From positions 2,950,001 through 3,014,000 of the forward strand of contig CM067526.1 in the NCBI GenBank assembly GCA_034509925.1: a stretch of DNA of 64,000 bases. The letters are read 5' to 3'. The notes under the pieces were generated by a model. It did not search any database. It had not been told where the DNA came from and saw only the letters and a list, made by a program, of their open reading frames with translations. Source of the stretch: Hirudinaria manillensis. Taxonomy: Eukaryota; Annelida; Clitellata; Hirudinida; Hirudinidae. A program made the translations under genes and the position numbers. This document shows, in pieces, positions 21,184-63,433 of the stretch (within the stretch, counting starts at the first letter, position 1; every line of letters starts with the position of its first letter).

Positions 21184-23134
21184 ATGGTGGTGGAAATGTT
21201 AAATGTGAAAAAGGTCTTTGCTTTTTCAGTGTCTGTTGCTTGTTATCAAGGTTAGTCAACTTTTAAATATCTTAATACTTTGATAATAAATGAGAACTGT
21301 TAAAAAAAATTGAGTTTTATCTTGACTGAGAGAGCGTTTCCTATAATAATTCATTTTTTTAGGTTATTCTAATACCATATTACAAATCTTTGTAAGATTT
21401 TTTCCCCTTTCTAAGCATTTGTCTCAGGATTAACGTTTTCAATTGATATAAACAACCCTGGAGAGGATAAAATATTGAAATGTGATCATAAGGCTGCTTA
21501 TTGGAAGAGAGGATATGTGGATATTTTTGACGGAAATGAAATCGAGAAGTCGTACAACAAAACATTCGAAATTGACAACGCAACCTTCAACAATGACCTT
21601 AGAATTAATAGAATAACCTTTCAAGATGCTGGTGAATATTCATGCATTTCAGAAGATCCCGGAGTGACGTCATTGGTTAATATCATAGTCATTGGTATGT
21701 CTGCTACTGTTACGAAATTAGTTTTGTACAATTGCAAAAAATAAGTTTGAAAATAAGTTAAGAAATAATAAATTTGGTGTCCAAGATGTTAAAAATATAT
21801 TCAAAGGCAAATACCGAATTTATGATAAAGCATTCATATTTTACTTCAGATAAAAATATATCATGTAACTTATCTTCGTCGTCATCAAATTTTTCATTAT
21901 CTTTGCAAACAAAAGAAATTTTGACCATAAATTGCACAATAACACTGAATGCAAGCAATGTGTGCAATGTTAAACCATTATGGACTGAAAAGGTATCTAA
22001 TAATAACCTAACAACTGAGATATCCTACGGATACAACAATGGTTACATGTGGCTCATTACAAATGGAGACAATGATTTCAAAGGAGGCAACAAATTTTGG
22101 TTGAGAATTATTTTCACTTGCAATTTGTCAGCAACTACTGGAAAGGAATGGAAAGTTGTTGAATCTGTTTACGACACCAACTACATTTCTCCAGAAATAA
22201 TGTTTCCACGTAATTGTTTTTGTACTCTTTCTTCTCAAAAAATATAATAAAAGTTTACTCAATTTTCTGTTTACCAGATTCTACACCGTGGCTGTCGGAT
22301 GGTGATAAGCATATTCAGATATTTAATTATATAACATATTTATATTTTATATAACATTTTATTTAATTTAATAGTATCATTCCAGGTAATTGGATCATGG
22401 TGGCGATCACAGCGGTATTACTTTTGCTGTCAGTGTTCTTGATTATCTTCATTATTCATCAAAAATATCAAAAAAGTAGAGAAGAAATCTCAACAATAAG
22501 TAATAAATCCCTTTTAATTTGTTGACGTTGCATAACACAATTCCACATAACTATTCCTTCCACCTGGGGCAATAAAAACTTGATTTGAAGTCGAAATTTA
22601 TGAAAATTAAGGGAATAGGACTTTTTGGGTGATAATTTAGAACTAAAATCATCAGATAAAGTGATAACCATCAAAACTGATGTTAGTCTCGTCATGCCAA
22701 TGTAAATTAGAACAGGCAATTAACATAACACCAGTCATTTCAAATTCATCCTACACCCATGGCCTCTCCCAACTTCATAATGCGCTATAACGTTGAACTA
22801 TCACAGGCGGCATAATAGTGAGATGTTACTGTATATATTATTTTTTCTATCATAGAAAGGCATTTGAAAAGAAATTATTAAACTCTTTAAAGGAAAGAGG
22901 CCTCTTCCAAGCGTCCCAGAATTTCGAAGATACATTAGAAACAGCATAGCTAGGAATCCATTTTTAAGTCATCGAAGGATTGAAGAAGCTCAAGTAACCA
23001 CAAGTAGGACATCTTTAAAATTTGCAACGGCCAGGTTCAGTTCCATCTCCAGATCAAAAAGTAGATCAAATGCAGCCATAAAACCAAATGAATCCAACAT
23101 TTCAGAATATAACATGGAAATGACCTTAAAATGA
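21184..23134 (+). CDS. Ig receptor A: two Ig-like domains, TM, basic tail
   Basis: Six exons, all junctions phase 1, 364 residues: 21184-21250 (signal peptide MVVEMLNVKKVFAFSVSVAC), 21428-21694 (Ig1), 21850-22209 (Ig2), 22278-22301 (8-residue stalk), 22386-22499 (TM, VLLLLSVFLIIFIIH), 22872-23134 (tail). Ig1 has the canonical Cys, Trp and DAGEYSC. Ig2 is unusual, with Cys in ISCN, INCT, VCN and FTCN. N-glycosylation sites NKT, NIS and NCT point to an outer-surface role. The tail is basic, has PLPSVPEF and ends ISEYNMEMTLK, which looks like a degenerate form of the ISEYEIV motif of gene E. The tail acceptor (AAAAG at 22871) lies past an earlier AG but is the only one keeping the frame; decayed copies elsewhere keep the same AAG. 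Ligand unknown. Confidence 0.8.
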
Positions 23135-23724
23135 AATTTGAAATTTCATGTGCTGATGTTTTTGAAAGCATGTATAATAAAGTGAATTGTTCTAACTGAT
23201 TCTACAGGGAGCTTATGCTTTGATGCACGTAAGAAACAAGTTATTTTAGGATGTATTTATGGTCGCAGCTTTTACTACGGAAAAACAAAAATAAACTATG
23301 ACTAGTTAGATAAATGTGCTGAAGCAAGCTAAGAAAACAAAAGAGTAAAATAAAAAGAGACTTCTAAAAGCTTAGAAAATACTTTGGAAAGGAATGGAAA
23401 AAACAAAAATATATTCAATAAACCACAAAACAGTGCAAATTAAAAAACAGATTTCAAAAGAAAAGCACCAAACACCTTGATAAATATTTTCCAATCAAAT
23501 TCATGCAAAATTAGTTTGTCTCAAAGACATCATGCATAAAGTGGTACTAGTGGTAGAAAAAATAATTTTAAAAATAATATATATATATAATAAAATAATA
23601 TATATATTTCTTGACTAGGAAAATAATAGAATAATGTGACTAATGTAGGTTATTGCACATAAATCTAGTTAGATTCAGATGTCTATTAGATGTACATCAG
23701 ATGTGGTACTCCGTTATTGCCAGG
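23135..23724. other. convergent intergenic between receptors A and B
   Basis: 3' flanks of A (+) and B (-). Copies of this stretch lie at about 45600-46300 and 55080-55520. No gene seen. Confidence 0.5.
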
Positions 23725-25305
23725 TTACTGCTTGTGACTACCACTGTGGTCTCGTCTTGATGCACTGAGAAGTGGAAAAATATTAAAAAATAATTTCAAG
23801 ACTAATATTTTATTTATTTCAAGTATTTTATTGAGTTTTAAAATAATGTTTAATTATTGAATATTAAATTAATAAATTATTTATATTCCATGTTTGCCTT
23901 GACCTATTGACTACAATAAGAAATACAATCACAGTTTCAAAAATACTTACAAGAAATAAACCTTTAAGGCCACCACTGCAACCAACAAGAGGCACAAAAT
24001 TGTTATTACAGCAATGTAAGCTTTTTCATCTGCAGATAAGAATGTAATATAATACAATAAGAGCCAGAAATAAGAAATGTTTCAGATTCAAATTCTAAAA
24101 ATATTATCAATGTACAGTACTTATGAATTTCAATATCCTTATTAATTTAATTATCTAATAATATTATTATTATTCACATCTTTGAGGATTCCTGACATAA
24201 TTAATCAATCGGTTACTTACTATGGTGTTCATTTAAATTGAAACTAATCACAATTCCAGATGTGGTGCATTTTTCTCCAGTCACAAACTGACAAGAACCT
24301 TTGCATATATAATCTCCAGACAGAGCCAAGTGTTCTTTGCTGAGATGTTGTGATTGTATCTTATATTCTGTGTCCTTTTGATTCAGGAGCCAATAATAAG
24401 AGCATTCTAAAGATTCACTTTTGTTCAAAGTACACGAAGCATTTGAAAATGCATCAGAATTTGTCAATGATATATGTTGATTGAGAGTTTGCACATCTAA
24501 TTTGTAAAAAATAAAATAATAAACTTCAACATATTTCATTTTAAAATATACAGAATTAAAACATTACATTGCACAGTAACTGGTGATAATTTGCAAGGAG
24601 TAATAAGACCGTATCCTTCCAAGGAACATTCAAATGTTATTCCTTGCATGTCATTCATCACCTGAAAGTCATCATTGACACTCGAAATTCTTTTATTTCC
24701 CTGTGATTCCTCTTGAACATTTGTCAAAATGTTGTGCCTTAAAATAATATCTTCAGTTATTTTTTTCAACCAAATAAATCTCAAAGGACCAATATTTCCA
24801 CGATGATGGAATGAACAGGATCTGTGTATAGTATCAGGTTTAACTGGGCAGTCATTTTTACCAACTATTACTTGGTTACTTCTGATAGTTGAAGAACAAT
24901 TTAAATCTGTTATGAATGTTGAAAAAAACTATTAAATTTTAAATATGCAATTGACATCTATACTGCCACTAAACATCAAAATTCACTTACTTCCAATAGC
25001 CAGCTCATAGGTGCAAACATGTATCATATCCTCTCCTCTATCTCCAAATTCAAATCTGTACCTTCCAACCTTGTTCATAGTGGCATTCATAAGGAGATTG
25101 CAATAACTTTGGCTTTGACTGCAATCACCAACATAGCCTGGATAATTTCTGATTTTGTTATCATAGACATATACTTCTTTCCCAACAGAATTTTCCTGGA
25201 AAAACCATCGCATCCTGTCTGCTCGACCAGTAAAGTTGCAATTAAGAGAGACTAATTTATTCTCATTGGTGTAAGCGTAAGTGTAATCTTTTTTTGAATT
25301 ACATT
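23725..25305 (-). CDS. Ig receptor B: three Ig-like domains, TM, short tail
   Basis: Read on the minus strand: V-like exon 25305-24991 (315 nt), D2 24906-24568 (339), D3 24496-24221 (276), TM 24029-23951 (79; VITILCLLLVAVVAL), tail 23764-23725. Exons 1-3 join at phase 1 and the TM exon ends phase 2, leaving a 14-residue tail (ASRRDHSGSHKQ) without tyrosine. The V-like exon has B-strand Cys (SLNC) and Trp (MRWFFQ), but the F-strand Cys is replaced: GRYRF instead of YxC, with extra Cys in YCNL and HVCTYEL. A possible leader exon is 25452-25365 (hydrophobic, phase 1, weak donor A/GTTCTC). With no signalling motif it may be a ligand, adhesion partner or adaptor-dependent receptor. Confidence 0.78.
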
Positions 25306-25452
25306 CTGCAAAAAAATCAACTCACTAAACAAAGCAATTTATGCATTTCCGAAGTTGTGAGAACTTAACAGGGCTTTCTTAAAAATCATAATAAATCTAA
25401 TAAAAATTAATATAAAGAAGATTCCTGGGTAACCATTTATACAGAAAAACAT

Positions 25453-27347: not shown

Positions 27348-27734
27348 TTATTCATCATCCGACGAATCATAAAATATATCGTTCGGAGAGTTAAAGTCCT
27401 CAGGTACAGCCGGCAAATTAGTGGAGTACGATAGAGCTCTTAAGTTATACTTAATGAATACTAAAGCTTCAACATTTTTGGGCAACAGTCTAATTCTCCC
27501 TTTTTGAATAGACTGTGCCACTTTAAACTCCCGTTCACTATCACTTGAACTGGGAGGTGGGCTTAGGTAAATCCTTGCCAGCTTCGCCAAGCCTGGTAAC
27601 TCGCTCCTGTAAATTTTCCAGTAGGCCAGTGGGTCATCCGTTCTATTTATGTGCTTTTTTGAAAGGTAAGCCTCCAATTCCCTCTCTGCTTCGGGTGCTT
27701 TCTTTCCCGTAATTTCGGAAGCTTCTTCTCTCAA
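27348..27734 (-). pseudogene. hAT transposase C-terminal dimerisation domain fragment
   Basis: 128 open residues with the classic hATC signature: DPLAYWKIYRSELPGLAKLA, then LSPPPSSSDSEREF, then RIRLLPKNVEALVFIKYN. The N-terminal BED finger and the catalytic region are absent; upstream sequence is cut short and then replaced by Tc1-derived DNA. It cannot encode an active transposase. Confidence 0.9.
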
Positions 27735-27894
27735 TACTTCTTCTCACAGGTCGTTGTCCTTGCTTGAATGACCCTCCTCTGTTCCTGAACAAGATGCAGG
27801 CACCCTCCCATCGAAAGGAGCCTAAGAAAGTTTCCTTAACTCGATGGAGTTAAATAAACATCATTGGCTGGAAACTGGTATGATGTCCTTAAAA

Positions 27895-28922: not shown

Positions 28923-30673
28923 TTAAATGTGGGCTGAGTGTTGCCTCATTATTCGATTTTCTTGTAATTGAGATTTTTTCCTCCTTAAATTGAAGCTGAA
29001 AGCATTTTTCCCAGTTAAGATGTAATGCAATCATATTTTAAGATGTAATGCTAACACATTGCAGGAGATAATACTAACATATTATATTTAAGATGTAATA
29101 CTAATATATTATATGATATAATACTAACATATTATATGATATCGTGTACTTGTAAAAATTGTATTATAATAATAATAATCAGAAGTGGCAATATTGTAGA
29201 ATTATAATACATTTTCAAGAAACTAACAGTTTCACAGCACAGGCGGTTAGACAAACCAAAAGGACACACAAAATGACTATAGAAACTATATAGCCTGTTG
29301 CATCTGAAAAGATTTCATTAAAATTAATGATTAAATTTATTTTCAATTTAAAACAAATTCACAAATTATAACTATATATGTAGTATATGTAACTAAATAT
29401 ATGTAGCTACATCAGCTCATCCAGAAAGTGGTCATACTTCTTTTTAAAGCAACACTTACTAAAAGATCCCTCTTTGATGAATGAAATAACATTTCCTGAC
29501 ATAAAACATTCTTCACCACTAGAAAACTGACAGTGACCCAAACATTTAAAATCTCCTGACATGACTAAATGTTCCTTGCTGATATTCTGAGACTGGATTT
29601 TGAGTTCAGACTTTTGGTGATTCAGAAGCCAGTGATATGAACATTTCAAAGATTGACTTTTGTTTAAAGAGCAGGTGATAACCTGATTATCACTCAAACG
29701 TGTTATGTTCACTTTTGGCCGTTCGTATCTCTTCACAACTTTAAATGATAAAATAAACTGATTAAAACAAAAGCTTAATTAATAAATGGAAAGTCATAAT
29801 TAAAAATAAACTTTGTTATTAGTATTACATTCCACAGAAACAGGGGGCAATTTGCATGGGATGATATGTCTGTATCCTTCCAAGGAACATTCAAATGTTA
29901 TTCCTTGCATGTCACTTGTTACCAGAAAGTCATCATTGACACCCAAAATTCTTTCATTTCCTTGTGATTCCTCTTGAACATTTGACAATATTTTGTGCCT
30001 TAGAATGGTATCTTCAGTTATTGCTTTCAACCAAACAAATCTCAGAGGACCACCAATATTTCCACGATGATGAAATGCACAGGATCTGTGTATAGTATCA
30101 GTTTTAACTGGACAGTCACTTTCACCAACCATTACTTGGTTTCTTCTTATATTTGAGCTACATTCTAAATCTGAAATATTAGTAAATTTAAAAGTAACAT
30201 TAGATTAAACTGCAATAATAAGGCTACTCTTTCAAACTATTTCATGCTAATACACTACTAATCTTTACATAAAAGTTTCTGAGTAACAAAATAAATATAT
30301 CTCAAAAGGGTAGTCAAACAGAATATTCTATTTAGACAATCATGAAGAAAATATTTACCTCCAACAGTCAGCTCATAAATACATCCTGGCTTCATGTGAT
30401 CACCTTTCTGTCCAAATTCAAATCTGTATCTTCCAGCCAAGTCTTTTGTGGCTACACTGATATTGAGGTTACAGAAACGTTTTCTTCCATCACAATGTCC
30501 TTCATAACCTTCATAAGGAAGGATATTACTATCAAAGGCAAATGTTTCTTTTTCTCCAGGATTTTGTTGAAAAAACCATCTCATCTTGTCAGCCTCTTCA
30601 TTGAAAGTGCATGAAAGAGTCACAGCTTTATTGGTGTTTACATGCATATATTGGATCAAATTTGCACCATGAC
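28923..30673 (-). CDS. Ig receptor C: three Ig-like domains, TM, basic tail
   Basis: Minus-strand exons: V-like 30673-30359 (315 nt), D2 30170-29829 (342), D3 29738-29460 (279), TM 29303-29228 (76; IVSIVILCVLLVCLTACAV), tail 28995-28923. The frame closes exactly and the tail is FNLRRKKSQLQENRIMRQHSAHI with no tyrosine. The V-like exon has TLSC, MRWFF and YEGYEGHC, while the F-strand reads AGRYRFEFG in place of YxC. D2 has HRSC, FVWLK and GITFEC; D3 has ITCS, YHW and FKCLGHC. The signal-peptide exon upstream was not found. It is head to head with receptor D across about 1.8 kb. Confidence 0.78.
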
Positions 30674-32120: not shown

Positions 32121-32187
<67 letters not shown>

Positions 32188-32467: not shown

Positions 32468-34049
32468 ATGAATGAAGTTGATTGGACCGAGAAATTGAAG
32501 AAATGCAAAAGAAGAAAGCTTATGATTTTTGGAGCATTATTCTTCAAAGGTTAATGAGTATTTAGTCAAGTTTAATGAATTCTTTTTACTAATTAATAAA
32601 ATTATTACTAAAAGTTATGCGGAATGCCGAGAGAACGGAAATTGAAAGATAATTTAATACATGAAATCAATCAAATAATTTTATTATTAGGATGAAAAGT
32701 TAGCACCGTTTGTTGGCATATAACAAAACATTTAGGCCGATCAACCGTTTCATTGTCATAGGATGACCTTTATTATATTTTAAAAATTTATCTTTTATAC
32801 AAAGTGCTTGATATCAGCGTTTCTGGATCAACATTTTATATTGAAATCGTAAACTCTGGAGAGGATAAAATATTGAAATGTGATGACGTGCCCAAGTATT
32901 GGAAGCGAGGATATGAGGATATTTTTGACGGGAATATCACCAAGGCATACAACAAAACATTCGAAATCGACAACAACGATCTTAAAATTAACCAAGCAAC
33001 TTTCGATTTAGCTGGTCAATATTTTTGTCTCACAAAGAACCACAATCATTCATCTGCCGTAGAAGTCATTGTTATCGGTATGTTTGACATTGTTTCTAAA
33101 ACATCAATTTTCATTTACATAATTTAACGAAATTTTCAAGTTTCAAAAATTAATGATATCTGAAAGGGAATCTCTCCTTTAAACATTCTTTAAAAATGTT
33201 TTTTTTTTATAAAACTTAATCTATGGAATTTATTACAGATAAAAATATTACATGCAACGTGTCAATGTTTCTTCTTCAATCAAATTTTGTCATAAATTGT
33301 TCGTTCATATTCAACGCAAGTAACACATGCAGAGCTAAACCATTATGGACTGAAAAAATATCCAACATAAATGTTACCTCTGGATTAACTGCATACAACA
33401 ACGGCTATGTAGGGCTCGATTTAAATGGAAGCAACGGTTTTAAAGATGGCAACAAGTTCTGGCTGCGAATTCTTTTCACCTGCAACATTTCATTTTATCT
33501 CGATCCAAATTTAAAAAATAATTGGACACTTGTTGAGTCGATATACGACACCAAGTACATCTCTGAGGAGATCAAGTTTTCAAGTATTCGTTTTATTAAT
33601 TACTCCATCTCAGTCTAACTAAATTCAATATTTTTATCCACAGAACAACAAAGGCTTCTTTACAGTAATAATACTCCACAATAACATTTATGAGCATTTT
33701 ATGAACATAATTCTATATATTTTAATTTCCAGGCAAGTGGATCATAATAATAATTTTTGTGATTTTATTTACAATCATGAAGAAAATATTTACCTCCAAC
33801 AGTCAGCTCATAAATACATCCTGGCTTCATGTGATCACCTTTCTGTCCAAATTCAAATCTGTATCTTCCAGCCAAGTCTTTTGTGGCTACACTGATATTG
33901 AGGTTACAGAAACATTTTCTTCCATCACAATGTCCTTCATAACCTTCATAAGGAAGGATATTACTATCAAAGGCAAATGTTTCTTTTTCTCCAGGATTTT
34001 GTTGAAAATACCATCTCATCTTGTCAGCCTCTTCATTGAAAGTGCATGA
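32468..34049 (+). CDS. Ig receptor D: two Ig-like domains, TM, antisense-derived tail
   Basis: Exons 32468-32549 (leader, KLMIFGALFFK), 32805-33077 (Ig1), 33239-33583 (Ig2), 33644-33664 (stalk) and 33733-34049. All junctions are phase 1, giving 345 residues. Ig1 has LKCD, YWKRGY and LAGQYFC. Ig2 has NYxGL (YVGLDL) where all relatives have Trp (YVWLDL). The TM exon starts normally (KWIIIIIFVILFTI), but at 33775 it runs in frame into the reverse strand of a duplicated V-like exon. This adds about 90 residues (from MKKIFTSNSQ to FIESA) and removes the normal donor and tail. The new tail has no known motif. It may be a real chimera or a decaying gene. Confidence 0.68.
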
Positions 34050-34108
34050 AAGAGTCACAGCTTTATTGGTGTTTACATGCATATATTGGATCAAATTTGC
34101 ACCATGAC
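33794..34108 (-). pseudogene. orphan V-like exon of a C-type receptor
   Basis: A complete 315-nt V-like exon, nearly identical to that of receptor C (MRWYFQ for MRWFFQ, KCFCNL for KRFCNL), with acceptor and donor kept. Its D2, D3, TM and tail exons are missing because the duplication began inside the C gene. Its reverse strand forms the tail of receptor D. Confidence 0.88.
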
Positions 34109-34748
34109 CTGGTTGGATGATATATGATTTTTAATAAATATTAAAATCTTCTGAAAATATGTTCATAAATGAAGTAAAAAATACCGATAAATCAGTACTT
34201 GCAGAACTGACGATCAAATAAATGTCAAGATGATAAATGATATTAAGTTTATCTTAAATTATTTGATAAACACCTTATTGATTTAACATTTCAGAGATCC
34301 AACTTGAATGCTTATCATGAAGCGTATTATCTATGCACATAAATATATAAAAAACTTAATATTTATTAAATCCAAATATACAAGATTTCTAGTCAAATGC
34401 AATTTCATATTCCCGTATTTAACAAGAGATTTATTAATGAAGTAGTCTAATCGTATTTTTGGTTCGTCAAACATTTATAGAATGATTGTTGAAATTGAGT
34501 TTCGGAGTTGTGTTTAATTTACTTCAAGCATTCTTACACCGATTACATAAGATGATATTTATTCGATTATTATTAATTCGATTTGAAGTAAAAAATAAAT
34601 AAATTGCAACTAACTGTGTTCTGATATCGCGAATATTATAAAAGTAATTGTAAACATTATTTGTTATATATTTACATCCAGCACATCAGTTCATGGAAAT
34701 ACCCACATCAATGTTGCAGATGCTGCGAAGCACGTGACAAATGGTTAT

Positions 34749-35964: not shown

Positions 35965-35967
35965 TAC

Positions 35968-36342: not shown

Positions 36343-38259
36343 ATGAATGAAGTTGATTGGACCGAGAAATTGAAGAAATGCAAAAGAAGAAAGCTTATGA
36401 TTTTTGGAGCATTATTCTTCAAAGGTTAATGAGTATTTAGTCAAGTTTAATGAATTCTTTTTACTAATTAATAAAATTATTACTAAAAGTTATGCGAAAT
36501 GCAGAGAGAACGGAAATTGAAAGTTAATTTAATACTTGAAATCATTCAAATAATTATTTAATTAGGATGAAAAGTTAGCACCGTTTGTTGGCATATAAAA
36601 TAAAACATTTAGGCCGATCAACCGTTTCATTGTCAGGGGATGATCTTTATTATATTTTAAAAATTTATCTTTTATACAAAGTGCTTGATATCAGCGTTTC
36701 TGGATCAACATTTTATATTGAAATCGTAAACTCTGGAGAGGATAATATATTGAAATGTGATCACGTGCCCCAGTATTGGTGGCGAGGAAATGTGGATATT
36801 TTTGACGGGTATATCATCAAGGCATACAACAAAACATTCGAAATCGACAACACAAACGACAACAACGATCTTAAAATTAACCAAGCAACTTTCGCTATAG
36901 CTGGTCAATATTCGTGTCAAACAAAAAACCGCAGTAATTCATCTGCCATAGAAGTCATTGTTATCGGTATGTTTGACATTGTTTTTAAAACATCAATTTT
37001 CATTTACATAATTTAACGAAATTTTCAACAATCAAAATTAAAGATACCTGAACGGGAATCTCTCATTTAAATATTCTTAGAAAATGTTTTTTTTTTATAA
37101 AACTTAATCTATGGAATTTGTTACAGATAAAAATATTACATGCAACGTGTCAATGTTCCTTCTTCAAGATTTTGTCATAAATTGTTCGTTCATATTCAAC
37201 GCAAGTGATACATGCAGAATTAAACCATTATGGACTGAAAAAATATCCAACATAAATGTTACCTCTGGATTAACTGCATACAACAACGGCTATGTATGGC
37301 TCGATTTAAATGGAAGCAACGGTTTTAAAGATGGCAACAAGTTCTGGCTGCGAATTCTTTTCACCTGCAACATGTCATTTTATCACGATTCACATTTAAA
37401 ATATAAATGGGAACTTGTTGAGTCGATATACGACACCAAGTACATCTCTGAGGAGATCAAGTTTTCAAGTATTCGTTTTATTAATTACTCCATCTCAGTC
37501 TAATCATGTTAAGCTCATTATTTTTATCCACAGATCAACAAGGGCTTCTTTACAGTAATAATACTCAACAGTAACCTTTATGAGTATTTTATGAATATCA
37601 TACTATATATTTTAATTTCCAGGCAAATGGATCATAATAATAATTTCTGTGATATTATTTACAATCTCGATGGCTTTAATAACTGTCATCATCTGCGAAA
37701 GATATCGTTCAACTAGACGGAAGCGAGCAAGTAAATGTTCACTATTATTACCCAACTGAATAATTACGAAGCAATTTAAATTCTGAATTGTTACATTATT
37801 TCTTATTATAAACAGATTTTAGTTGCAAAAACCAACAAATTTTCAAAAATCCAGTAGTCAGGCCTTGTATAGCTACCAGATTATATTTAATAATAGATGT
37901 ACTTTAAAATTTATTATCATTACAACAATCTACATTATCTGTTAGTTATCCAGTATCGTTATTATTAAAATATTAATGCAGGAAACATGGAACTCCAAAA
38001 AGTTCCTCAGGCTCGAAAATCTGTCTGTAACAACCTGCTCAGAAATCCGCTTCGAAATGAAAATGAAGAATACAACATCGCTCCTTATTATTCCACCTCT
38101 CAAAAATTTCGCAAAAAACGTGAAAGTTCATCAAAAGTTCAAAGACGAGAAAGAAGCAAATGTGACAATCCGAAAGTACATTTCATGGGAGAAATTTCAG
38201 AATATGAAATTGTAGATTATGACGACCATGATGACGATCATTATGAAATGTGTGATTAA
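36343..38259 (+). CDS. Ig receptor E: two Ig-like domains, TM, ITIM-like tail
   Basis: Six phase-1 exons, 371 residues: 36343-36424 (leader), 36682-36966 (Ig1), 37127-37468 (Ig2), 37534-37554 (stalk), 37623-37730 (TM, WIIIIISVILFTISMALITV) and 37982-38259 (tail). Ig1 has LKCD, a double Trp in QYWWRG, and IAGQYSC. Ig2 carries N-glycosylation sites NIT, NVS, NCS and NVT. The 92-residue tail contains ISEYEIVDY; SEYEIV fits the ITIM consensus (S/I/V/L-x-Y-x-x-I/V/L), which in other animals recruits SH2 phosphatases. More tyrosines occur in EEYNIAPYY and HYEMCD. It is the only class-1 gene in the window with a complete tail of this type. An inhibitory role is inferred from the motif only. Confidence 0.82.
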
Positions 38260-49566: not shown

Positions 49567-51155
49567 ATTATTATTATTTGGTTTCGTTTTCTTTTCACGA
49601 GATAAAAATTAGCTGAACGAAGTGTAACTGAATAAATATTGAACCAATAATAGTTGCTCGTCAGGCGAATAAGCCATCTGAACGATCGAAAAAGAGGGCA
49701 TTCAAAAAGTTATTAAAAAATGTTTACTCTGCTAAAAGGATAAGTTAGAAGCAAAACAAATCGTTTACCTATATAGTATAACGACCACTAAAGGAAGAGA
49801 TTATATAGCAAGTGTCTATTATTAAGTGTCTTATTAAATTTAATTCATGAATGAAGTTGATTGGACCGAGAAATTGAAGAAATGCAAAAGAAGAAAGCTT
49901 ATGATTTTTGGAGCATTATTCTTCAAAGGTTAATGAGTATTTAGTCAAGTTTAATGAATTCTTTTTACTAATTAATAAAATTATTACTAAAAGTTATGCG
50001 GAATGCCGAGAGAACGGAAATTGAAAGATAATTTAATACATGAAATCAATAAAATAATTTTATTATTAGGATGAAAAGTTAGCACCGTTTGTTGGCATAT
50101 AACAAAACATTTAGGCCGATCAACCGTTTCATTGTCATAGGATGACCTTTATTATATTTTAAAAATTAATCTTTTATACAAAGTGCTTGATATCAGCGTT
50201 TCTGGATCAACATTTTATATTGAAATCGTAAACTCTGGAGAGGATAAAATATTGAAATGTGATGACGTGCCCAAGTATTGGAAGCGAGGATATGAGGATA
50301 TTTTTGACGGGAATATCACCAAGGCATACAACAAAACATTCGAAATCGACAACAACGATCTTAAAATTAACCAAGCAACTTTCGATTTAGCTGGTCAATA
50401 TTTTTGTCTCACAAAGAACCACAATCATTCATCTGCCGTAGAAGTCATTGTTATTGGTATGTTTGACATTGTTTCTAAAACATCAATTTTCATTTACATA
50501 ATTTAACGAAATTTTCAAGTTTCAAAAATTAATGATACATGAACGGGAATCTCTCCTTTAAACATTCTTTAAAAATGTTTTTTTTTTATAAAACTTAATC
50601 TATGGAATTTATTACAGATAAAAATATTACATGCAACGTGTCAATGTTTCTTCTTCAATCAAATTTTGTCATAAATTGTTCGTTCATATTCAACGCAAGT
50701 AACACATGCAGAGCTAAACCATTATGGACTGAAAAAATATCCAACATAAATGTTACCTCTGGATTAACTGCATACAACAACGGCTATGTATGGCTCGATT
50801 TAAATGGAAGCAACGGTTTTAAAGATGGCAACAAGTTCTGGCTGCGAATTCTTTTCACCTGCAACATTTCATTTTATCTCGATCCAAATTTAAAAAATAA
50901 TTGGACACTTGTTGAGTCGATATACGACACCAAGTACATCTCTGAGGAGATCAAGTTTTCAAGTATTCGTTTTATTAATTACTCCATCTCAGTCTAACTA
51001 AATTCAATATTTTTATCCACAGAACAACAAGGGCTTCTTTACAGTAATAATACTCCACAATAACATTTATGAGCATTTTATGAACATAATTCTATATATT
51101 TTAATTTCCAGGCAAGTGGATCATAATAATAATTTTTGTGATTTTATTTACAATC
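47756..51155. repeat. segmental duplication, copy 3
   Basis: Third copy of the block at 30341-33774, with the TM exon uninterrupted. It lacks the MITE and LTR of copy 2 and has lost about 24 bp near 49074. Confidence 0.9.
48094..49846. promoter_or_regulatory. shared upstream region of divergent receptors B' and D'
   Basis: Counterpart of 30674-32467, including an (ATT)n tract at about 49508-49577. It presumably drives both genes. Confidence 0.4.
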
Positions 51156-53313
51156 TCTACGGCTCTAACAACTGTCATCATCTGCGAAAGATATCGTTCA
51201 ACTAGACGGAAGCGAACAAGTAAATGTTCAGTATTATTACCCAATTGAATAATTACGATCAAATTTGATTTCTAGATTGCTGCTTTATTTCTTATTATAA
51301 ACTAGTTTTAGTTGAAAAAGCGACAAATTTAAACGGTAAAGTATTTTTGAAAAGGTTTTGATGGGATTTAACCTTAATCAGATGATAATATGTTTAAATT
51401 TCTCTTGTTAGTAGGTATTTTTATAAACAAAAATTAAAACTACAAAAATATGAAAAATTAATTCACACTTTACGCTGTCATTTTTTATTCAACTCTTCAA
51501 CATCGATGATACTGAAAGAGGATGTCGATAATTTAATCAAAGAAACAATTCTTCAAAAGAGTTCTACTTGAGACGACTAGTATCGCTTATCACTTTCACT
51601 GTCCTTTTTGACTTCCTGGAAATAATTCTAGTAATTAAATTGTCTGACCATTTTTCAACGATGCAAAATATAGAAAGCTAAGTTTAAGCCTAACGCATTA
51701 GACAAATAGGGAGATTGTTACATCCGTAATTTGATTAATTTTAGTGATGGCAACATAAACAACAATTTCACACTTTGTCACGAGACAAACTATGGTTTTT
51801 TTTTTGCATTTCACACGAAATAAAAGATTGAAAGTTGCCAATTCATTTCTCCATCCATCCATCCAGAATTTTTTTTTATTCTTTAGCCAATTAGAAGAAT
51901 TTAAGATAATTTAAAGTGTGCCAATCCTGAAGTTAAATTTGTCTGAAATAAATAGTAATATATATATATATATATAAATAGTATTACATATAAATAGTAA
52001 TACAAATAAATATTAATACTCAGTTCTGCTTTGTTTTATTTATTAATTTTTTAATTAAAAAAAAGATAAACATCTCTTAAGGAGATAGCTTTGTGGCTGG
52101 AAACTTAAGTGTTAGCTAAAATAATAATCAAGAACATATTTTGGTCAACACCATGTATATGTATGTAAGTGTTTGAGGGATGATTATGATCAGGCCGTCA
52201 AAGTATGCTATCCGCGAGGGAAATTTTAGGGTTTCAGTGGATGCTTCAGAGTTCCGGTGAGAGAAAGAGAGGAATTTGATTGTACCAACAAACCTGAGTG
52301 TCCCAAGCCTATGACAGGCACTGTACTAATATTAAGGAGGTTTTCAACAAATGCTCCACTACTCGTTCGCAAAAATTAGCTTTTCACTTGAACTCCCTCA
52401 TTCAGAAATCCTTATTTTGCCGCTAACAGAAATAACTCGAAACTAATAAAAGTTTTTGTCACAATTTAATTTATTAAATACGAAATAGAGCAGAGACAAC
52501 TTTCCTATTTTCATTTTCTGATTACATTTTAAGAGCTTAGAACATACTTCCAGCAATATTAAATTTCATACTGTTACGAAATTAGTTTTGTAGAATCTTA
52601 AAAAAATTCTTTTGAAAATAAGTTAATAATAAATTCGGTGTTAAAGATATTAAAAATATATTCAAGGGCAAACACCGAATTTATGATAAAGCATTCATAT
52701 TTTACTTCAAATAAAAATATATCATGTAACTTATCTTCATCGTCATCAAATTTTGAACATAAATTGCACAATAACACCAAATGCAAGCAATGTGTGTGAT
52801 GTTAAACCATTACGGACTGAAAAGATATCTAATAATAATCTAACAACTGAGATATCCTATGGATACAACAATGGTTACATGTGGATCATCACAAATGGAG
52901 ACAATGATTTCAAAGGAGGCAACAAATTTTGGATGAGAATTATTTTCACTTGCAATTTGTCAAGAACACATTGTTGCATAACACAATTATAGAAATGATA
53001 GAAAATTGAACAAATCATTCTGGAATCTCATAACAGTGTAACTGCGTAACGTTAAGTAATGTAACAGTGGTCATATCAAATTCTTCCTACACGTATACCA
53101 TAATTATATATGCCTTATTTAGTTATGATTTATTCATTATATATGCTTGTAGTGTCATAGTCTTTTAGTTTATAAATCTTATAATTATTTTCTGGCATTT
53201 CAGCTTCACATGATCAACGTTCATCTGCTGGAGTTGGAACGAATGAAGAGAACTACGAAAGTATTCATTTAGGCCAAGTTCAGTGCACTGAATACGAAAC
53301 ATTGTCCCAATAG
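49847..53313 (+). CDS. Ig receptor D': D-type ectodomain, ITAM-like tail exon downstream
   Basis: Exons 49847-49928 (leader), 50184-50456 (Ig1), 50618-50962 (Ig2, with Trp in YVWLDL), 51023-51043 (stalk) and 51112-51219 (TM). The E-type tail exon is gone: about 880 bp present after the E TM exon (37840-38720) is missing near 51330. The next usable phase-1 tail exon is 53204-53313 (acceptor TGGCATTTCAG). It encodes NYESIHLGQVQCTEYETLSQ, an ITAM-like tail of F type. The F-type Ig2 remnant between them (52709-52992) has lost its acceptor AG. If spliced this way, the product has 312 residues and an activating rather than inhibitory tail. Ectodomain exons are firm; the long-intron join is inference. 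Confidence 0.65.
52640..52992 (+). pseudogene. F-type Ig2 exon remnant
   Basis: Matches the Ig2 exon of A and F from DKNISCNLSS on, but the acceptor reads TTCAA instead of TTCAG. A deletion removes the FPSPLQTKEI-type stretch, and the 3' part after CNLS is replaced. A near-identical copy is at 59994-60346. Confidence 0.85.
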
Positions 53314-55503: not shown

Positions 55504-55902
55504 TTCTATCAAAGAAAAGCATTTAACAAGAAATTATTAAACTCTTTAAAGGAAACAGGCCTCTTCCAAGCGTCCCAGAATTTCGAAGGTACATGTATGC
55601 CAGCTCATAGGTGCAAACATGTATCATATCCTCTCCTCTATCTCCAAATTCAAATCTGTACCTTCCAATCTTGTTCATAGTGGCATTCATAAGGAGATTG
55701 CAATATCTTTGGCTTTGACTGCAATTACCAACATAGCCTTCATAAGGTCTGATTTTGTTGTCATAGGCATATACTTCTTTCCCAACAGAATTTTCCTGGA
55801 AAAACCATCGCATCCTGTCTGCTCGTCCAGTAAAGTCGCAATTAAGAGAGACTAATTTATTCTCATTGGCGTAAGTGTAATCAACTCTGTTTGAATTACA
55901 CT
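55504..55902 (-). pseudogene. orphan B-type V-like exon fused to a reversed A-tail fragment
   Basis: The V-like exon (55902 down to about 55600) is close to receptor B (MRWFFQENSVGKE, SQRYCNLLMNAT) and keeps its acceptor. Its 3' end is cut at GAGCTGGC, and the reverse complement of an A-type tail exon follows (55504-55590), with no donor. The frame runs on to a stop at 55523. D2, D3, TM and tail are absent. Confidence 0.82.
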
Positions 55903-57185
55903 CTGCAAAAAAACAAAGAATCAACGCAATTTAAGCATTTCCTAGGTTGTGAGAACTTAAGAGGGCTTTCTTAAAAATCGTAATAAATCTAATAAAAATT
56001 AATATAAAGAAGATTCCTGGGTAACCATTTATATAGGCAAACATAGAGATAGTAGCTTGTAAAAACACGATCCTTTGAGTTAATTTGAAAAATTTATTTA
56101 GGATATCCATTGGATATCCGCTATCTGCTGGTTATTACAGTGGATAGACCAGCGTCATGAAACATTTAAACAAAGGCAAGACCCGGGACTCAGGTAATAA
56201 ACAAAAACAAATAATCACGTGAGGTCATCCAGGCAATGCTATAATAAATATATGTCATGTTTATATTATATTTTATATGATGTAATAGAGTTTTATATGT
56301 TGTCAAATGTAATATTACAATTATTATTGAAAAAATATGTAAGGTTTTTGAACAAGCGTGTCCATAACTTTAGTTCCCAAACGGGGAGTTCAAAGGTATC
56401 CCACGTCTTTTGAACGTTCGTAAAAAAGATGCGTTTAACTTTTGCCAAAAATATTTACATGACATTGTAAAAGACATGTTGAAGATAATTCTCGCAAAAA
56501 TTCATGACAAAATTTTATAAACGGACTCCAGGATCTCAAAAAAACAAAGGTTGGGCATCCAAGGGTTAAAGTTTATCATGTAACTTCTCCATAGTAGTGG
56601 AAGATTCCACTGGATTCTTAGCGCAATCATAAATTTTCTGAGAAATAGAGTTGAGATGATTAATGTAGAAATTTAATATGGAAATTTCATTAAGATCTAT
56701 CTAGAATAGATTTAAGGATGATCACGTAACTTTTTCGTAGTGGGCAGGAAGAAGCACACTCCAAAGGGTTTTCTTGGCCATGACTTCAACAGAGTTTCCG
56801 AAGAAATTAAAAAAAAATTATTAAATATAAATACATATAAAATTATTTTACAAATACACACACACATTATAAATTATTATTATTATTATTTATTTTTTTA
56901 TTATTATTATAATTATTTGTTTTCCTTTTCTTTTCACGAGATAAAAATTAGCTGAACGAAGTGTAACTGAATAAATATTGAACCAATAATAGTTGCTCGT
57001 CAGGCGAATAAGCCATCTGAACGATCGAAAAAGAGGGCATTCAAAAAGTTATTAAAAAATGTTTACTCTGCTAAAAGGATAAGTTAGAAGCAAAACAAAT
57101 CGTTTACCTATATAGTATAACGACCACTAAAGGAAGAGATTATATAGCAAGTGTCTATTATTAAGTGTCTTATTAAATTTAATTC
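55903..57185. other. intergenic between broken B-type exon and D''
   Basis: 55940-56070 matches the upstream of receptor B. 56080-56740 is largely unique, and includes the perfect inverted repeat GGATATCC-ATT-GGATATCC (56101-56119). From about 56880 it follows the D upstream region. No gene seen. Confidence 0.45.
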
Positions 57186-57237
57186 ATGAATAGTTGATTG
57201 GACCGAGAAATTGAAGAAATGCAAAAGAAGAAAGCTT

Positions 57238-60200
57238 ATGATTTTTGGAGCATTATTCTTCAAAGGTTAATGAGTATTTAGTCAAGTTTAATGAATTCTT
57301 TTTACTAATTAATAAAATTATTACTAAAAGTTATGCGAAATGCAGAGAGAACGGAAATTGAAAGATAATTTAATACTTGAAATCATTCAAATAATTGTTT
57401 AACTAGGATGAAAAATTAGCACCGTTTGTTGGCATATAAAATAAAAACATTTAAGCAGATCAACCGTTTCATTGTCAGAGGATGATCTTTATTATATTTT
57501 AAAATTTATCTTTTATACAAAGTGCTTGATATCAGCATTTCTGGATCAACATTTTATATTGAAATCGTAAACTCTGGAGAGGATAAAATATTGAAATGTG
57601 ATGACGTGCCCAAGTATTGGAAGCGAGGATATGAGGATATTTTTGACGGGAATATCACCAAGGCATACAACAAAACATTCGAAATCGACAACACAAGCGA
57701 CAACAACGATCTTAAAATTAACCAAGCAACTTTCGATTTAGCTGGTCAATATTCGTGTCTCACAAAAAGCTATATTAATTCATCTGCCATAGAAGTCATT
57801 GTTATTGGTATGTTTGACATTGTTTTTAAAACATCAATTTTCATTTACATAATTTAACGAAATTTTCAACAAAAAAATTAATGATATCTGAAAGGGAATC
57901 TCTCATTTAAACATTCTTAAAAAATGTTTTTTTTTTATAAAACTTAATCTATAGAATTTATTACAGATAAAAACATTACATGCAACGTGTCAATGTTCCT
58001 TCTTCAATCAAATGAAGATTTTGTCATAAATTGTTCGTTCATATTCAACGCAAGTGATACATGCAGAGTTAAACCATTATGGACTGAAAAAATATCCAAC
58101 ATAAATGTTACCTCTGGATTAACTGCATACAACAACGGCTATGTATGGCTCGATTTAAATGGAAGCAACGGTTTTAAAGATGGCAACAAGTTCTGGCTGC
58201 GAATTCTTTTCACCTGCAACATGTCATTTTATCACGATTCACATTTAAAATATAAATGGGAACTTGTTGAGTCGATATACGACACCAAGTACATCTCTGA
58301 GGAGATCAAGTTTTCAAGTATTCGTTTTATTAATTACTCCATCTCAGTCTAACTAAATTCAATATTTTTATCCACAGAACAACAAGGGCTTCTTTACAGT
58401 AATAATACTCCACAATAACATTTATGAGCATTTTATGAACATAATTCTATATATTTTAATTTCCAGGCAAGTGGATCATAATAATAATTTTTGTGATTTT
58501 ATTTACAATCTCTACGGCTCTAACAACTGTCATCATCTGCGAAAGATATCGTTCAACTAGACGGAAGCGAACAAGTAAATGTTCAGTATTATTACCCAAT
58601 TGAATAATTACGATCAAATTTGATTTCTAGATTGCTGCTTTATTTCTTATTATAAACTAGTTTTAGTTGAAAAAGCGACAAATTTAAACGGTAAAGTATT
58701 TTTGAAAAGGTTTTGATGGGATTTAACCTTAATCAGATGATAATATGTTTAAATTTCTCTTGTTAGTAGGTATTTTTATAAACAAAAATTAAAACTACAA
58801 AAATATGAAAAATTAATTCACACTTTACGCTGTCATTTTTTATTCAACTCTTCAACATCGATGATACTGAAAGAGGATGTCGATAATTTAATCAAAGAAA
58901 CAATTCTTCAAAAGAGTTCTACTTGAGACGACTAGTATCGCTTATCACTTTCACTGTCCTTTTTGACTTCCTGGAAATAATTCTAGTAATTAAATTGTCT
59001 GACCATTTTTCAACGATGCAAAATATAGAAAGCTAAGTTTAAGCCTAACGCATTAGACAAATAGGGAGATTGTTACATCCGTAATTTGATTAATTTTAGT
59101 GATGGCAACATAAACAACAATTTCACACTTTGTCACGAGACAAACTATGGTTTTTTTTTTGCATTTCACACGAAATAAAAGATTGAAAGTTGCCAATTCA
59201 TTTCTCCATCCATCCATCCAGAATTTTTTTTTATTCTTTAGCCAATTAGAAGAATTTAAGATAATTTAAAGTGTGCCAATCCTGAAGTTAAATTTGTCTG
59301 AAATAAATAGTAATATATATATATATATAAATAGTATTACATATAAATAGTAATACAAATAAATATTAATACTCAGTTCTGCTTTGTTTTATTTATTAAT
59401 TTTTTAATTAAAAAAAAAGATAAACATCTCTTAAGGAGATAGCTTTGTAGCTGGAAACTTAAGTGTTAGCTAAAATAATAATCAAGAACATATTTTGGTC
59501 AACACCATGTATATGTATGTAAGTGTTTGAGGGATGATTATGATCAGGCCGTCAAAGTATGCTATCCGCGAGGGAAATTTTAGGGTTTCAGTGGATGCTT
59601 CAGAGTTCCGGTGAGAGAAAGAGAGGAATTTGATTGTACCAACAAACCTGAGTGTCCCAAGCCTATGACAGGCACTGTACTAATATTAAGGAGGTTTTCA
59701 ACAAATGCTCCACTACTCGTTCGCAAAAATTAGCTTTTCACTTGAACTCCCTCATTCAGAAATCCTTATTTTGCCGCTAACAGAAATAACTCGAAACTAA
59801 TAAAAGTTTTTGTCACAATTTAATTTATTAAATACGAAATAGAGCAGAGACAACTTTCCTATTTTCATTTTCTGATTACATTTTAAGAGCTTAGAACATA
59901 CTTCCAGCAATATTAAATTTCATACTGTTACGAAATTAGTTTTGTAGAATCTTAAAAAAATTCTTTTGAAAATAAGTTAATAATAAATTCGGTGTTAAAG
60001 ATATTAAAAATATATTCAAGGGCAAACACCGAATTTATGATAAAGCATTCATATTTTACTTCAAATAAAAATATATCATGTAACTTATCTTCATCGTCAT
60101 CAAATTTTGACCATAAATTGCACAATAACACCAAATGCAAGCAATGTGTGTGATGTTAAACCATTACGGACTGAAAAGATATCTAATAATAATCTAACAA

Positions 60201-60667
60201 CTGAGATATCCTATGGATACAACAATGGTTACATGTGGATCATCACAAATGGAGACAATGATTTCAAAGGAGGCAACAAATTTTGGATGAGAATTATTTT
60301 CACTTGCAATTTGTCAAGAACACATTGTTGCATAACACAATTATAGAAATGATAGAAAATTGAACAAATCATTCTGGAATCTCATAACAGTGTAACTGCG
60401 TAACGTTAAGTAATGTAACAGTGGTCATATCAAATTCTTCCTACACGTATACCATAATTATATATGCCTTATTTAGTTATGATTTATTCATTATATATGC
60501 TTGTAGTGTCATAGTCTTTTAGTTTATAAATCTTATAATTATTTTCTGGCATTTCAGCTTCACATGATCAACGTTCATCTGCTGGAGTTGGAACGAATGA
60601 AGAGAACTACGAAAGTATTCATTTAGGCCAAGTTCAGTGCACTGAATACGAAACATTGTCCCAATAG
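57238..60667 (+). CDS. Ig receptor D'': D-type ectodomain with shortened leader, ITAM-like tail exon
   Basis: The D-type leader start at 57186 is followed by a two-base loss that puts a stop in frame, so translation would have to start at the internal ATG 57238 (MIFGALFFK). Exons: 57238-57265, 57523-57807 (Ig1), 57967-58317 (Ig2), 58378-58398 (stalk), 58467-58574 (TM) and probably 60558-60667 (tail with YESIHLGQVQCTEYETL). This closes at 300 residues. As in D', the E-type tail exon is deleted and an F-type Ig2 remnant lies in the putative last intron. The D'' TM-to-tail stretch is almost identical to that of D'. A weakened or lost signal peptide is possible. Confidence 0.58.
59994..60346 (+). 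pseudogene. second F-type Ig2 exon remnant
   Basis: Near-identical copy of 52640-52992, with the same dead acceptor and internal deletion. Confidence 0.85.
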
Positions 60668-61744
60668 AACACATTTTTCATTAATTTTGACGTGTTATTA
60701 GTAGGGGACGCGGGATTACATCAAAAATAAACAAGTTGAAAGAAATACAATTATTAAATTTAATATTTGCTGACATGAAACAGTGCAATTAAATGATACT
60801 TATAAACGTTTTTAATGACTTCTCAGTAAAAGCAAAATATGTTCGGAAAAGATCTATCAAAGGAAGCTTTAATATCCCCCTGTCAGTATAAAGACAATAC
60901 ATTAATTGTAGTCCAGCTAATCAAAACTTGGCCAATGATATCACAAATCTTCATATTTAAATTTAAAACTGTAAGGCAATATTATTTGTAAATCATTGTA
61001 TTTAGTAAAATAATTATTTCAGCCTCGAGCCGAATTGATAATTTATTTCTCTGGCTTGCGTGCTTGGTTTGAATTTTCATACATACATATGTTTCTTAAA
61101 AGTTTTTGAACTTCAGAAAGTTTTAAAGAGGATTTAACACTGCAAATTTTTCTTATTTTGATTAAAAAAACTATTTCAAAATTAGCCATCGCTCTTTAAA
61201 TACCTATAATACTAGTAAAATCAGCGTCCAATTCCATTACGACCTGAAAGTCTTGTTCCCTCACTACATTTTCAAGGTAGTTATACTAAGAATTATCACT
61301 ATAGTGATCTTTTTTGCTAATGTGCATATGTATGCATAATAAATTTCAGTCTGAGGGATCGTGCGTAAAAATCGGCTCATTTTTGATTCCTTGTCAACAA
61401 AAGCTCGCTTTTAAACCGACTCCTCCCCTCCTTCTTCATTCAAAATTTCTCCATAAAATTTTTACGACTAATCAGTTATAATAAGCTATTATAATTAGAA
61501 TTTTGCTAAAATCCGCACTTTGTTAATCCCACTAGCACGGAGCTATTTACGGACGAAGCCGGTGCAAGTACTTCAATAAAAATTAATTTCAAAATTATTT
61601 TAGGTTTCATATTTTTTTTAAAAGGCTTTGAAACTTTTAAGTGCCAAAAAACTAGGAGTAATTTTTGCCTTCCAAAGGTGTAAGTGTTTATGTGGCATTA
61701 CCTAAAAGGTGGCCTCATCCACATAAAGGGGGAGGAGCCGCGAC
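60668..61744. other. 5' flank of receptor G
   Basis: No gene. Its copies at 43810-44912 and 53318-54390 lead into broken G leaders. Confidence 0.5.
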
Positions 61745-63433
61745 ATGAAAAGGGTATTTTCCATTGCACCACCACTGATATTCCTTTGGATTGTCATGGG
61801 TACGTTTCTGATTCTTTAATCAAGTTTTAACTTAATAAATAACTTAGGTGCGACATTGTCCAATGTCATCATCGTACAGGACTTCCCAGGCAAATATCTT
61901 TGGTTCATCATCTGGTTACTATGCTTAATGATAATAGAATTTTTGATTATAGCTTGTAATGTATACGGCTTGGAAAGAGTAGTTTTTGTTGGAACGCATC
62001 AAGAAATTACCTTAACATGTGATTTTGGGAAAAGTGCAAACAAAATGAGATGGTATTACACCAAAAATTCACCAAAAGATGAAGATTTTGTGTATGATTT
62101 AAATCTGAAGCCAATTCCTAATTATGTTTCTGAGTGCGACTTAGAGAAACAATACTGCCATCTTCTCATAGTTAATGCCACTAAGGATACAGCTGGATTG
62201 TATAGATTTGAACATGGTCTTAATGGAAAGGATGGAGAAACTGCATGCTTGTACCAAGTGGTTGTTGGAGGTTAAACAGGCTTTTTAGCTTATTTTTATT
62301 TTATCAAAACCAATTGATAAAATTTATTTACTTGATCACAGTCATTTACATCTTTTTTAACTTTATGAAAATAAAACTTCTATAGGATAATATTTTGATT
62401 TGTCAGTCTCTTAGGAGGCCCACAAACAATTCTTGTTATAGATTTAGAGTGCAGCTCCAATGTCAGAAAGAGCCAACTTGTCATTGGTCAGAGTGATTGT
62501 GCGATTGAGCCTGACAAAATCAAGAGGTCCTGCTCGTTTAACTATCATGGGAATTTTGAAGGTCCACTAAACTTTGTTTGGATGGGAAGGAAAGTTTTGA
62601 ACACTTCTATAGACAAATTTCTAAGTGCCACTAATGCAATGCATGAAGGAAATGCAAATACTCTAAAAGTTGAGGAAGAAATCGAAGTGACAAATGACAT
62701 GGATGGGAGACATTTTGAATGCTATTTGAAGGGGCAACGTCATGTCCCATCCTGCACACTACCAAAAATCCATGTTCAATGTTGGTTTAATGTTATTATC
62801 CCAGTATAATGGAGTGGATAAAATATTGATTTATTTGTTAATTTTATTTTTTGAATCAGTTGTGAAGAACACATCAACTCCAATAACTGTTGATGGTGAT
62901 TCTGACAAAACAACTTGCTCAATAGTTAAGAGTGAATCAGTCCAATGCGTTAATCATCACTGGCTGATACAAGACAAAGATAATGTTTTATTCACAGTAT
63001 TTTCAACATCTCTTACCAAGGATCATCTGAAAGTGGATGGTCATTATACGTGTTTAACAGAATGCCATTTTGACACAGGCATAGCCTGCCAATTTCAGGG
63101 AACTCATTTCGAGCAATATAGGACAAATATTTATAGTTAGCTAAATTCTAGTCATGAATGATTGAAGGAAAGTTATTAATGCTAAGCTATTTATTTTCAG
63201 AAAATATTTCATTCAGCTTTGTTGCTGTTATTATTGCCTTAATCATCATCATCATCATCATTGTGCTCAAGCCAAGATGTAGGTTGCACTTCTTTCTTAG
63301 TTTCATGATTGATAAGATAATTGAAAAGTTAGTTCCAATTAATTCCAATCATTCTTGTTCAGTGAGAAGACAGAATTTAACAATGAAAAACATCTTAGGA
63401 TGTAAGAAATCTCCAGATTCTCAATTAGAGTAA
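61745..63433 (+). CDS. Ig receptor G: three Ig-like domains, TM, basic tail
   Basis: Exons 61745-61799 (signal MKRVFSIAPPLIFLWIVM), 61953-62270 (V-like, 318 nt), 62442-62780 (D2, 339), 62860-63135 (D3, 276) and 63201-63433 (TM with an Ile-rich core, VAVIIALIIIIIIIVL, and tail). All joins are phase 1, giving 406 residues. Exon lengths equal those of B and C, so G is the plus-strand member of the three-domain class and the only one with a clear leader. The V-like exon has LTCD, MRWYY and GLYRFEHG, again without the YxC cysteine. The tail has no tyrosine. A GTAAGT sits at 63430, so a further exon beyond 63485 is possible. Confidence 0.83.

Follow-up and report, generated by a model that had tools for sequence, protein, structure and literature searches.

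Matched pairs of receptors with opposing cytoplasmic tails are textbook components of vertebrate immunity. The closest described systems include the CEACAM1/CEACAM3-type pairs of mammals and Xenopus, clustered members of the immunoglobulin superfamily (IgSF) in which similar ligand-binding domains are combined either with an immunoreceptor tyrosine-based inhibitory motif (ITIM) or with an activation motif (ITAM) or ITAM-like tail, whose matching is kept by gene conversion, and which show diversifying selection (PMC5112662). Siglec-11/Siglec-16 likewise comprise an inhibitory and an activating partner with ectodomain exons homogenized by gene conversion (PMC5701461). Among invertebrates, the Botryllus FcoR/fester receptors of the fuhc locus are IgSF proteins whose gene cluster adjoins a partner receptor family (PMC12065747), the 41 Hydractinia Alr genes form a large clustered IgSF group with ITIM/ITAM motifs on candidates (PMC11999971; PMC12065747), and the oyster CgIgIT2 is a lophotrochozoan IgSF receptor with an ITAM (PMC11999971). 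Here we describe a gene cluster of the leech Hirudinaria manillensis (assembly GCA_034509925.1), seen in and around a window of contig CM067526.1 (C1:2950001-3014000; the window is the whole stretch of 64,000 nucleotides that was analyzed). The cluster probably consists of annelid paired IgSF receptors, matched in their ectodomains and different in their tail classes, in which the exons encoding the two extracellular domains, D1 and D2, appear to have been copied between classes.

As in the CEACAM family, the activating-type leech partner carries its own tyrosine tail and the pattern resembles one left by conversion and diversification; 11 matched groups were seen in the leech, compared with one or two pairs per subgroup in Xenopus (PMC5112662). 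The leech family differs in belonging to an annelid and in showing no CEACAM match, either for D1 and D2 of gene G3 in PDB or for the exons scanned in Pfam. Descent from KIR, LILR, Siglec, or CEACAM genes is not indicated: D1 of G3 matches only titin (0.0096) and its D2 nothing, and the exons scanned returned general immunoglobulin (Ig) models or none in Pfam, plus weak oddities below the cut-off. Siglec-11/Siglec-16 are, unlike the leech genes, a single primate pair of sialic-acid-binding lectins (PMC5701461), and Botryllus FcoRs combine sushi and Ig domains at a histocompatibility locus (PMC12065747), whereas the leech genes have two domains, with no sushi match in the subset of family exons scanned. 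The Alr genes, compared by description only, encode cnidarian allorecognition proteins (PMC11999971; PMC12065747), and CgIgIT2 has five Ig domains and no opposing-tail partner described in that source (PMC11999971). No report of annelid paired receptors was found among the open-licence papers listed, and nothing relevant to leech graft rejection with immunoglobulin or to a leech ITIM appeared among the literature matches listed; to go by the titles listed, papers on leech genomes are concerned chiefly with anticoagulants and other active substances, and the main text of the H. manillensis genome paper contains none of the words 'immunoglobulin', 'ITIM', and 'receptor' (PMC10671345).

Six two-domain genes (G1-G6) occupy 21184-60667 on the plus strand of the window, each laid out in the exon order signal, D1, D2, transmembrane (TM), and tail. 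The genome spans 148.4 Mb in 23 contigs; PMC10671345 describes 13 chromosomes between 14.76 and 8.30 Mb long, together with nine debris scaffolds and a mitogenome of 15,581 bp. At least 47 distinct D2 places were found in it. Of these, 44 fall inside 0.67 Mb of C1 (C1:2.367-3.033 Mb), 8 of them in the window and 36 outside it; the other three are at C1:7.10 Mb (one) and C3:7.11 Mb (two). These counts are lower bounds, merged from two D2 searches with 39 matches each (E up to 1 and 0.01); the places with the weakest matches, at E near 0.001-0.03, are remote. Outside the window, D1, D2, TM, and tail exons were modeled from loci of about 3.3 kb. Two of these loci, L051 (C1:2448085) and L052 (C1:7101569), have identical ectodomains 4.65 Mb apart and tails each cut by an insert, with similar letters behind L033.

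ITIM, ITAM, and hemITAM were taken in their generally known definitions, with [SVIL]xYxx[ILV] as the canonical ITIM and Yxx[ILV]-x6-12-Yxx[ILV] as the ITAM pattern. Tail classes were assigned by hand to 32 genes. The multi-tyrosine class comprises 19 genes, 16 of them with ITAM spacing, and the single-tyrosine class 13. Of these 13, 10 carry a single Yxx[ILV]; G1 and L066 lack it, and L034, placed in this class by its PLPRLPE and VPYSTV, has three. Three further tails fit neither class. Single-class tails bear ITIM-like or acidic TYxxI motifs, often with a PLP or LPxxP stretch. The ITAM pattern occurs in 17 of 35 family tails against a shuffle mean of 0.8 (maximum 5 in 5000). The filter by which most tail exons outside the window were chosen required Yxx[ILV] and so inflates this excess. 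The PEDATYEVI-like motif of L049, L053-L055, L060, L063, L067, and L068 resembles the third, C-terminal motif of the multi-tyrosine tails compared (L048, L057-L059, L061, L062, L064, L070), some of which keep an LPEIPM-like stretch; this likeness and the retained stretch suggest an ancestral tail common to both classes.

Near-identical ectodomains sit on tails of both classes. The ectodomain tree has 41 rows, nine of them without a tail-class (A/I) label (L026, L027, L031, L032, L039, L051, L052, L071, L072), and leaves outside G2, two window remnants, L056, and the D2 places without a locus at C1:2419650 and C1:3033247. Among the 32 labeled genes, 11 sister groups mix both classes: L029/L030, L033/L034, G1/G4, G3/G6 with G5, L048/L049, L059/L060, L062/L067, L058/L054+L055, L050/L053 (with the broken-tailed L051 and L052), L063/L064, and L065/L066. 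Bootstrap support is 100 for ten of these groups and 99/79 for G3/G6. The tail label changes 12 times on the tree, at the high end of the shuffles (mean 10.3; 486 of 500 as low), and 10 of 11 cherries are mixed, compared with a permutation mean of 5.5 (P 0.005); the cherry test gives P 0.019 when all 35 tails are labeled by their number of Yxx[ILV] and P 0.026 with L034 left out. At the DNA level, the nearest neighbor of the ectodomain cassette belongs to the other class in 25 of the 31 genes with a match, whereas that of the TM-tail region, by matches that are partly short, belongs to the same class in 21 of 27. This difference was reached in none of 50,000 label permutations; it persists when only TM-tail matches of at least 100 bases are used (P 0.0003) and when L034 is relabeled (22 of 31 other-class ectodomain neighbors, P 0.003).

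The edges of the similarity suggest how such matches arose. Six mixed pairs (L033/L034, L048/L049, L059/L060, L062/L067, L050/L053, and L064/L063) share a single alignment of 743-821 bases at 90-96% identity, which runs from the D1 start region to at most about 50 bases past D2; L064/L063 have two further short shared pieces elsewhere. Within these pairs the D1-D2 intron is 81-99% identical, whereas the 150-base flanks fall to 46-63%, near background. The same-class genes L048 and L059 have TM-tail sequence in common (78% over 844 bases). L058/L055 falls in between (88% over 957 bases, flanks 64-70%), and in L029/L030, L035/L031, L026/L027, L065/L066, G1/G4, and G3/G6 the similarity enters or crosses the TM exon, with the switch nearer the tail exon. 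We read this as D1-D2 having been repeatedly copied or converted where only the cassette is homologous, and as probable tail replacement in the other cases; both are visible as a DNA pattern, from which we infer mechanism and direction, and conversion is our reading of the cassette-limited similarity. Substitutions in D1 are at most suggestive of diversification: nonsynonymous exceeded synonymous divergence (dN > dS) in 5 of 13 D1 comparisons (11.5 vs. 0.5 changes in L029/L030 and 18.5 vs. 2.5 in G3/G6, both small numbers) and in 2 of 14 D2 comparisons, D1 of G1/G4 having not been located and G3 having been used twice (against G5 and G6).

The genome also encodes candidate signaling partners of both kinds, a SYK-family kinase and SHP-type phosphatases. 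Locus L080 (C12:6.8945-6.902 Mb) combines a tyrosine kinase with two SH2 domains. For the first SH2 exon the SYK match reaches 1.3e-14, compared with 4e-4 for the best match other than SYK/ZAP-70, while the top PDB matches of the kinase exon are an EGFR entry (2.2e-29), TYK2 (4.3e-19), and then SYK (1.7e-17); because of this ranking, the SYK assignment rests on the tandem SH2 arrangement and the SH2 match. Two SHP-like loci, recognized by domain order only, show tandem SH2 domains followed by a same-strand protein tyrosine phosphatase match (C13:7.990-7.993 and C8:5.849-5.853 Mb). Two further SYK candidates were rejected: L078 (C6:9.96 Mb) has two SH2 matches and no kinase on its plus strand, and L079 (C7:7.83 Mb, plus strand) is a PLC-gamma-like gene.

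A paired-receptor design, proposed in a first-pass annotation of the window from its letters, is well supported by the 11 groups with matched ectodomains and different tails, the cassette-limited similarity, and the SYK- and SHP-like genes. Several observations weigh against it. A canonical ITIM is found in just 3 of 13 single-class tails, those of G3 (SEYEIV), L053 (STYDVI), and L034 (VPYSTV), and in 10 of all 35 tails (shuffle mean 4.6, maximum 13), a count not clearly beyond chance. The tails of G1 and L066 lack any Yxx[ILV], L034 also fits the ITAM pattern, and 3 of the 19 multi-tyrosine genes (L058, L061, L073) miss ITAM spacing. The L029 break falls within an I-type tail exon, and the truncated exon, which precedes the ITAM exon, keeps an intact acceptor, so that use of the ITAM exon is uncertain. 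The cherry test weakens to P 0.080 when the three tails without Yxx[ILV] are dropped; 8 of the 21 same-class TM-tail matches span just 31-75 bases, and matches of at least 100 bases are same-class in 13 of 19 cases (P 0.15 alone). Since these matches are partly short, the mixed ectodomain partners are the firmer half of the result and the grouping of TM-tail regions by class is a trend. In most comparisons (8 of 13 for D1 and 12 of 14 for D2) dN is at or below dS. The domain assignment is uneven as well: D1 passes the Pfam cut-off as an Ig domain in G1 and G4 but falls short of it in G3 and G5; of four D1 exons taken from the 2.4 Mb block, two gave weak V-set matches and two none; and the D2 exons tested had no Pfam or PDB match. 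Moreover, G2, with a broken TM exon, and G6, with a shifted start, may fail to give full-length products.

An alternative is that the tail classes are not opposed, the single class being hemITAM-like or carrying a core tyrosine motif, so that tails of both classes would activate, by way of either one SH2 docking site or two. An acidic TYxxI-type motif is common to eight single-class tails, and we take it to resemble hemITAMs (the one in L053 also fits the ITIM); it is PEDATYEVI-like, with acidic residues before the tyrosine, and is similar to the third motif of the multi-tyrosine tails. Botryllus FcoRs bear ITIM, hemITAM, and core motifs (PMC12065747). The three canonical ITIMs and the two SHP-like loci argue the other way, and we regard this alternative as less probable than opposed tails, although it is a real contender. 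We treat the single-tyrosine class as a putative inhibitory class, and a role of the cluster in immunity or allorecognition as a hypothesis.

Under the paired-receptor reading, the window would cover one end of a large family of annelid paired IgSF receptors, built from modules joined in phase 1: a signal exon, a putative ligand-binding D1-D2 cassette, a TM exon, and a tail exon from one of two main classes, multi-tyrosine (mostly YxxI/L-x6-12-YxxI/L) or mostly single-tyrosine. Copying or conversion of D1-D2 between classes, or else the loss of a tail exon and its replacement, would create or maintain the match between ectodomains. A Src-type kinase may phosphorylate the tails, whereupon the ITAM class would recruit the SYK-like kinase and PLC-gamma and activate the cell, and the single-tyrosine class would recruit an SHP-like phosphatase and restrain it. 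A pair of receptors whose binding faces are almost alike could thereby balance the response to a single ligand, most probably on immune cells. If true, a protostome array of matched pairs, with a DNA footprint of how they are made, would suggest that cassette copying and balanced recognition of the ITAM/ITIM type arise repeatedly in evolution, and the leech would be a tractable invertebrate in which to ask why activating partners follow inhibitory ones.

The same tyrosine tails might instead serve a neuronal or adhesive family engaged in self-recognition or wiring of the nervous system, since IgSF families do function in invertebrate neurobiology (PMC11999971). The rapid turnover, cassette copying, and tail pairing are more like those of the CEACAM and Siglec immune pairs, as described in PMC5112662 and PMC5701461, and we consider a neuronal role unlikely.

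Turning to the individual window genes, which we equate with genes A, D, E, F, D', and D'' of the first-pass annotation (G1 to G6, respectively), we found all six on the plus strand with predicted exon models that have GT/AG borders and, as had been claimed, phase-1 joins. G1 (21184-23134) has exons at 21184-21250, 21416-21694 (D1), 21850-22209 (D2), 22386-22499 (TM), and 22893-23134 (tail); its tail (PLPSVPE...ISEYNME, the latter at 23099 as annotated) is a degenerate relative of the G3 tail. The assertion that the two occupy the same place agrees with their alignment from the same exon join at 33% identity, the weak G1 tail acceptor having been picked by its match to the G3 join. G2 (32468-33776) had been counted among the six receptors; its signal, D1, and D2 exons are present, whereas its TM exon is broken near 33762-33776, and no tail exon was found for it. 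G3 (36343-38259) has exons at 36343-36424, 36682-36966, 37127-37468, and 37623-37730 and a tail exon at 37982-38259 that carries the ITIM-like SEYEIV (38197-38214). G4 (41958-43805) has exons at 41958-42003, 42224-42511, 42650-43009, and 43171-43284 and a tail exon at 43696-43805. G5 (49847-53313; 49847-49928, 50184-50456, 50618-50962, 51112-51219, tail 53204-53313) and G6 (57186-60667; 57186-57265, 57523-57807, 57967-58317, 58467-58574, tail 60558-60667) end like G4 in YESI-x9-YETL, which lies at 43746, 53254, and 60608 in the three genes. The ITAM exons predicted for D' and D'' exist; in each gene, however, an intron of about 2 kb, containing a D2 remnant, separates this exon from the TM exon. 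In addition, the first exon of G6 has a 2-base difference that shifts the start frame. The ITAM tail exon has three genome-wide matches, all inside the window, and the G3 tail exon one; such searches can overlook distant relatives, since the G3-tail search missed the diverged G1 tail.

The window's self-comparison suggests how G5 and G6 came by an ITAM-like tail. The G5 block corresponds to the G3+G4 block minus pieces, and the G6 block has the same gaps. Missing is the plus-strand segment 37843-38850 with the ITIM-like tail exon of G3 (positions 37842/38851 meet 51330/51391 in G5 and 58685/58746 in G6), as are, in the G5 block, about 1 kb with the signal and D1 exons of G4 and about 0.55 kb with the end of its D2 and its TM exon. 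What is left of that D2 is a remnant in the last intron of G5 (52690-52992, plus strand), with the acceptor AG lost, an internal deletion, and a cut 3' end, and a second copy of it in G6 (60044-60346, plus strand). With the ITIM-like segment absent and the remnant lacking an acceptor AG, the neighbor's ITAM exon would be next in line in both genes. We infer from this arrangement a loss of the tail segment in G5 and G6 rather than a gain in G3.

Another alternative is ordinary tandem birth and death, in which tail differences would be debris of unequal crossing-over without selected pairing. In its favor are the truncated G2, the two D2 remnants, the start-shifted G6, TM fragments near 45.2 and 54.7 kb of the window, and the interrupted tails of L051 and L052. 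Nevertheless, class mixing exceeds that of random labels (P < 0.05 in 3 of 4 cherry tests, in addition to the ectodomain neighbor tests), and open frames and tyrosine motifs are retained in both classes across many separate sister groups, which makes unselected debris, in our judgment, a slim prospect compared with paired receptors. The units of G5 and G6, spaced 7354 bases apart, agree at about 97.5% over 5 kb, which would fit haplotypes assembled side by side and mimicking recent duplicates, but such an artefact is highly improbable given that the high-fidelity (HiFi) reads, with a mean of 18.73 kb, exceed the repeat unit (PMC10671345) and that other units of the cluster differ in gene content.

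A frame at 39793-40668, named by eye as a Tc1-type transposase, is absent from the G5 and G6 blocks. The element has at least 39 further matches in the genome at 95-98% identity over nearly the whole 601-base query (among the best 40 of 245 candidates scored) and, given these many near-full-query matches, was probably active recently.

The coordinates of the first-pass annotation also take in interleaved three-domain genes, most of them on the minus strand, that form a second family. T1 (23947-25305, minus strand) is modeled with three domain exons, a TM exon, and almost no cytoplasmic tail, a layout shared by the models of T2 (29215-30673) and T3 (46617-48093), both also on the minus strand, whereas T4 (61848-63433, plus strand) is modeled with three domain exons, a TM exon, and a longer tail without Yxx[ILV]. 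Partial copies lie near 33765-34130 and 55523-55930 (minus strand), and at least 42 D2-type places of this family were found genome-wide, on C1, C11, C13, C2, and C6. Could these genes, interleaved with the two-domain receptors, encode co-receptors or ligands? More speculatively, the C1 cluster could be a leech self/non-self locus, a polymorphic missing-self system with an evolutionary origin separate from those of KIR and fuhc. Ectodomain cassettes would then pass continually, by copying, between an inhibitory and an activating array, each new inhibitory specificity would gain a matched activating partner, and the three-domain family may supply the co-receptor or ligand; we regard this scenario as improbable. 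The 'fusion' phenotypes to which the first-pass annotation proposed to link the cluster are unlikely, since the leech is an annelid and not a colonial animal.

Other features of the window include two U2AF35-like genes, named by eye, at 171-968 and 4852-5682 (minus strand), the second with CCCH and RRM matches; both are possible retrocopies because each lies in one uninterrupted frame. Two very similar tandem frames of HECT ubiquitin ligases lie at 9289-11364 and 12441-15392 (minus strand), with a HECT match in the first, and a frame at 27348-27743 (minus strand) is presumably the C-terminal part of a hAT transposase. In the mitogenome, the genes nameable by eye (cox1, cox2, cox3, trnQ, and nad6, then, after a stretch left unnamed, trnS, nad1, and nad3) share one strand and follow an order in keeping with annelids, as do the AGR codons read by eye at conserved Ser positions. 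Elsewhere in the genome, a nuclear COX1 stretch (C9:3026446-3027786) scores equal to the mitochondrial copy and represents either mitochondrial DNA inserted very recently or an assembly join.

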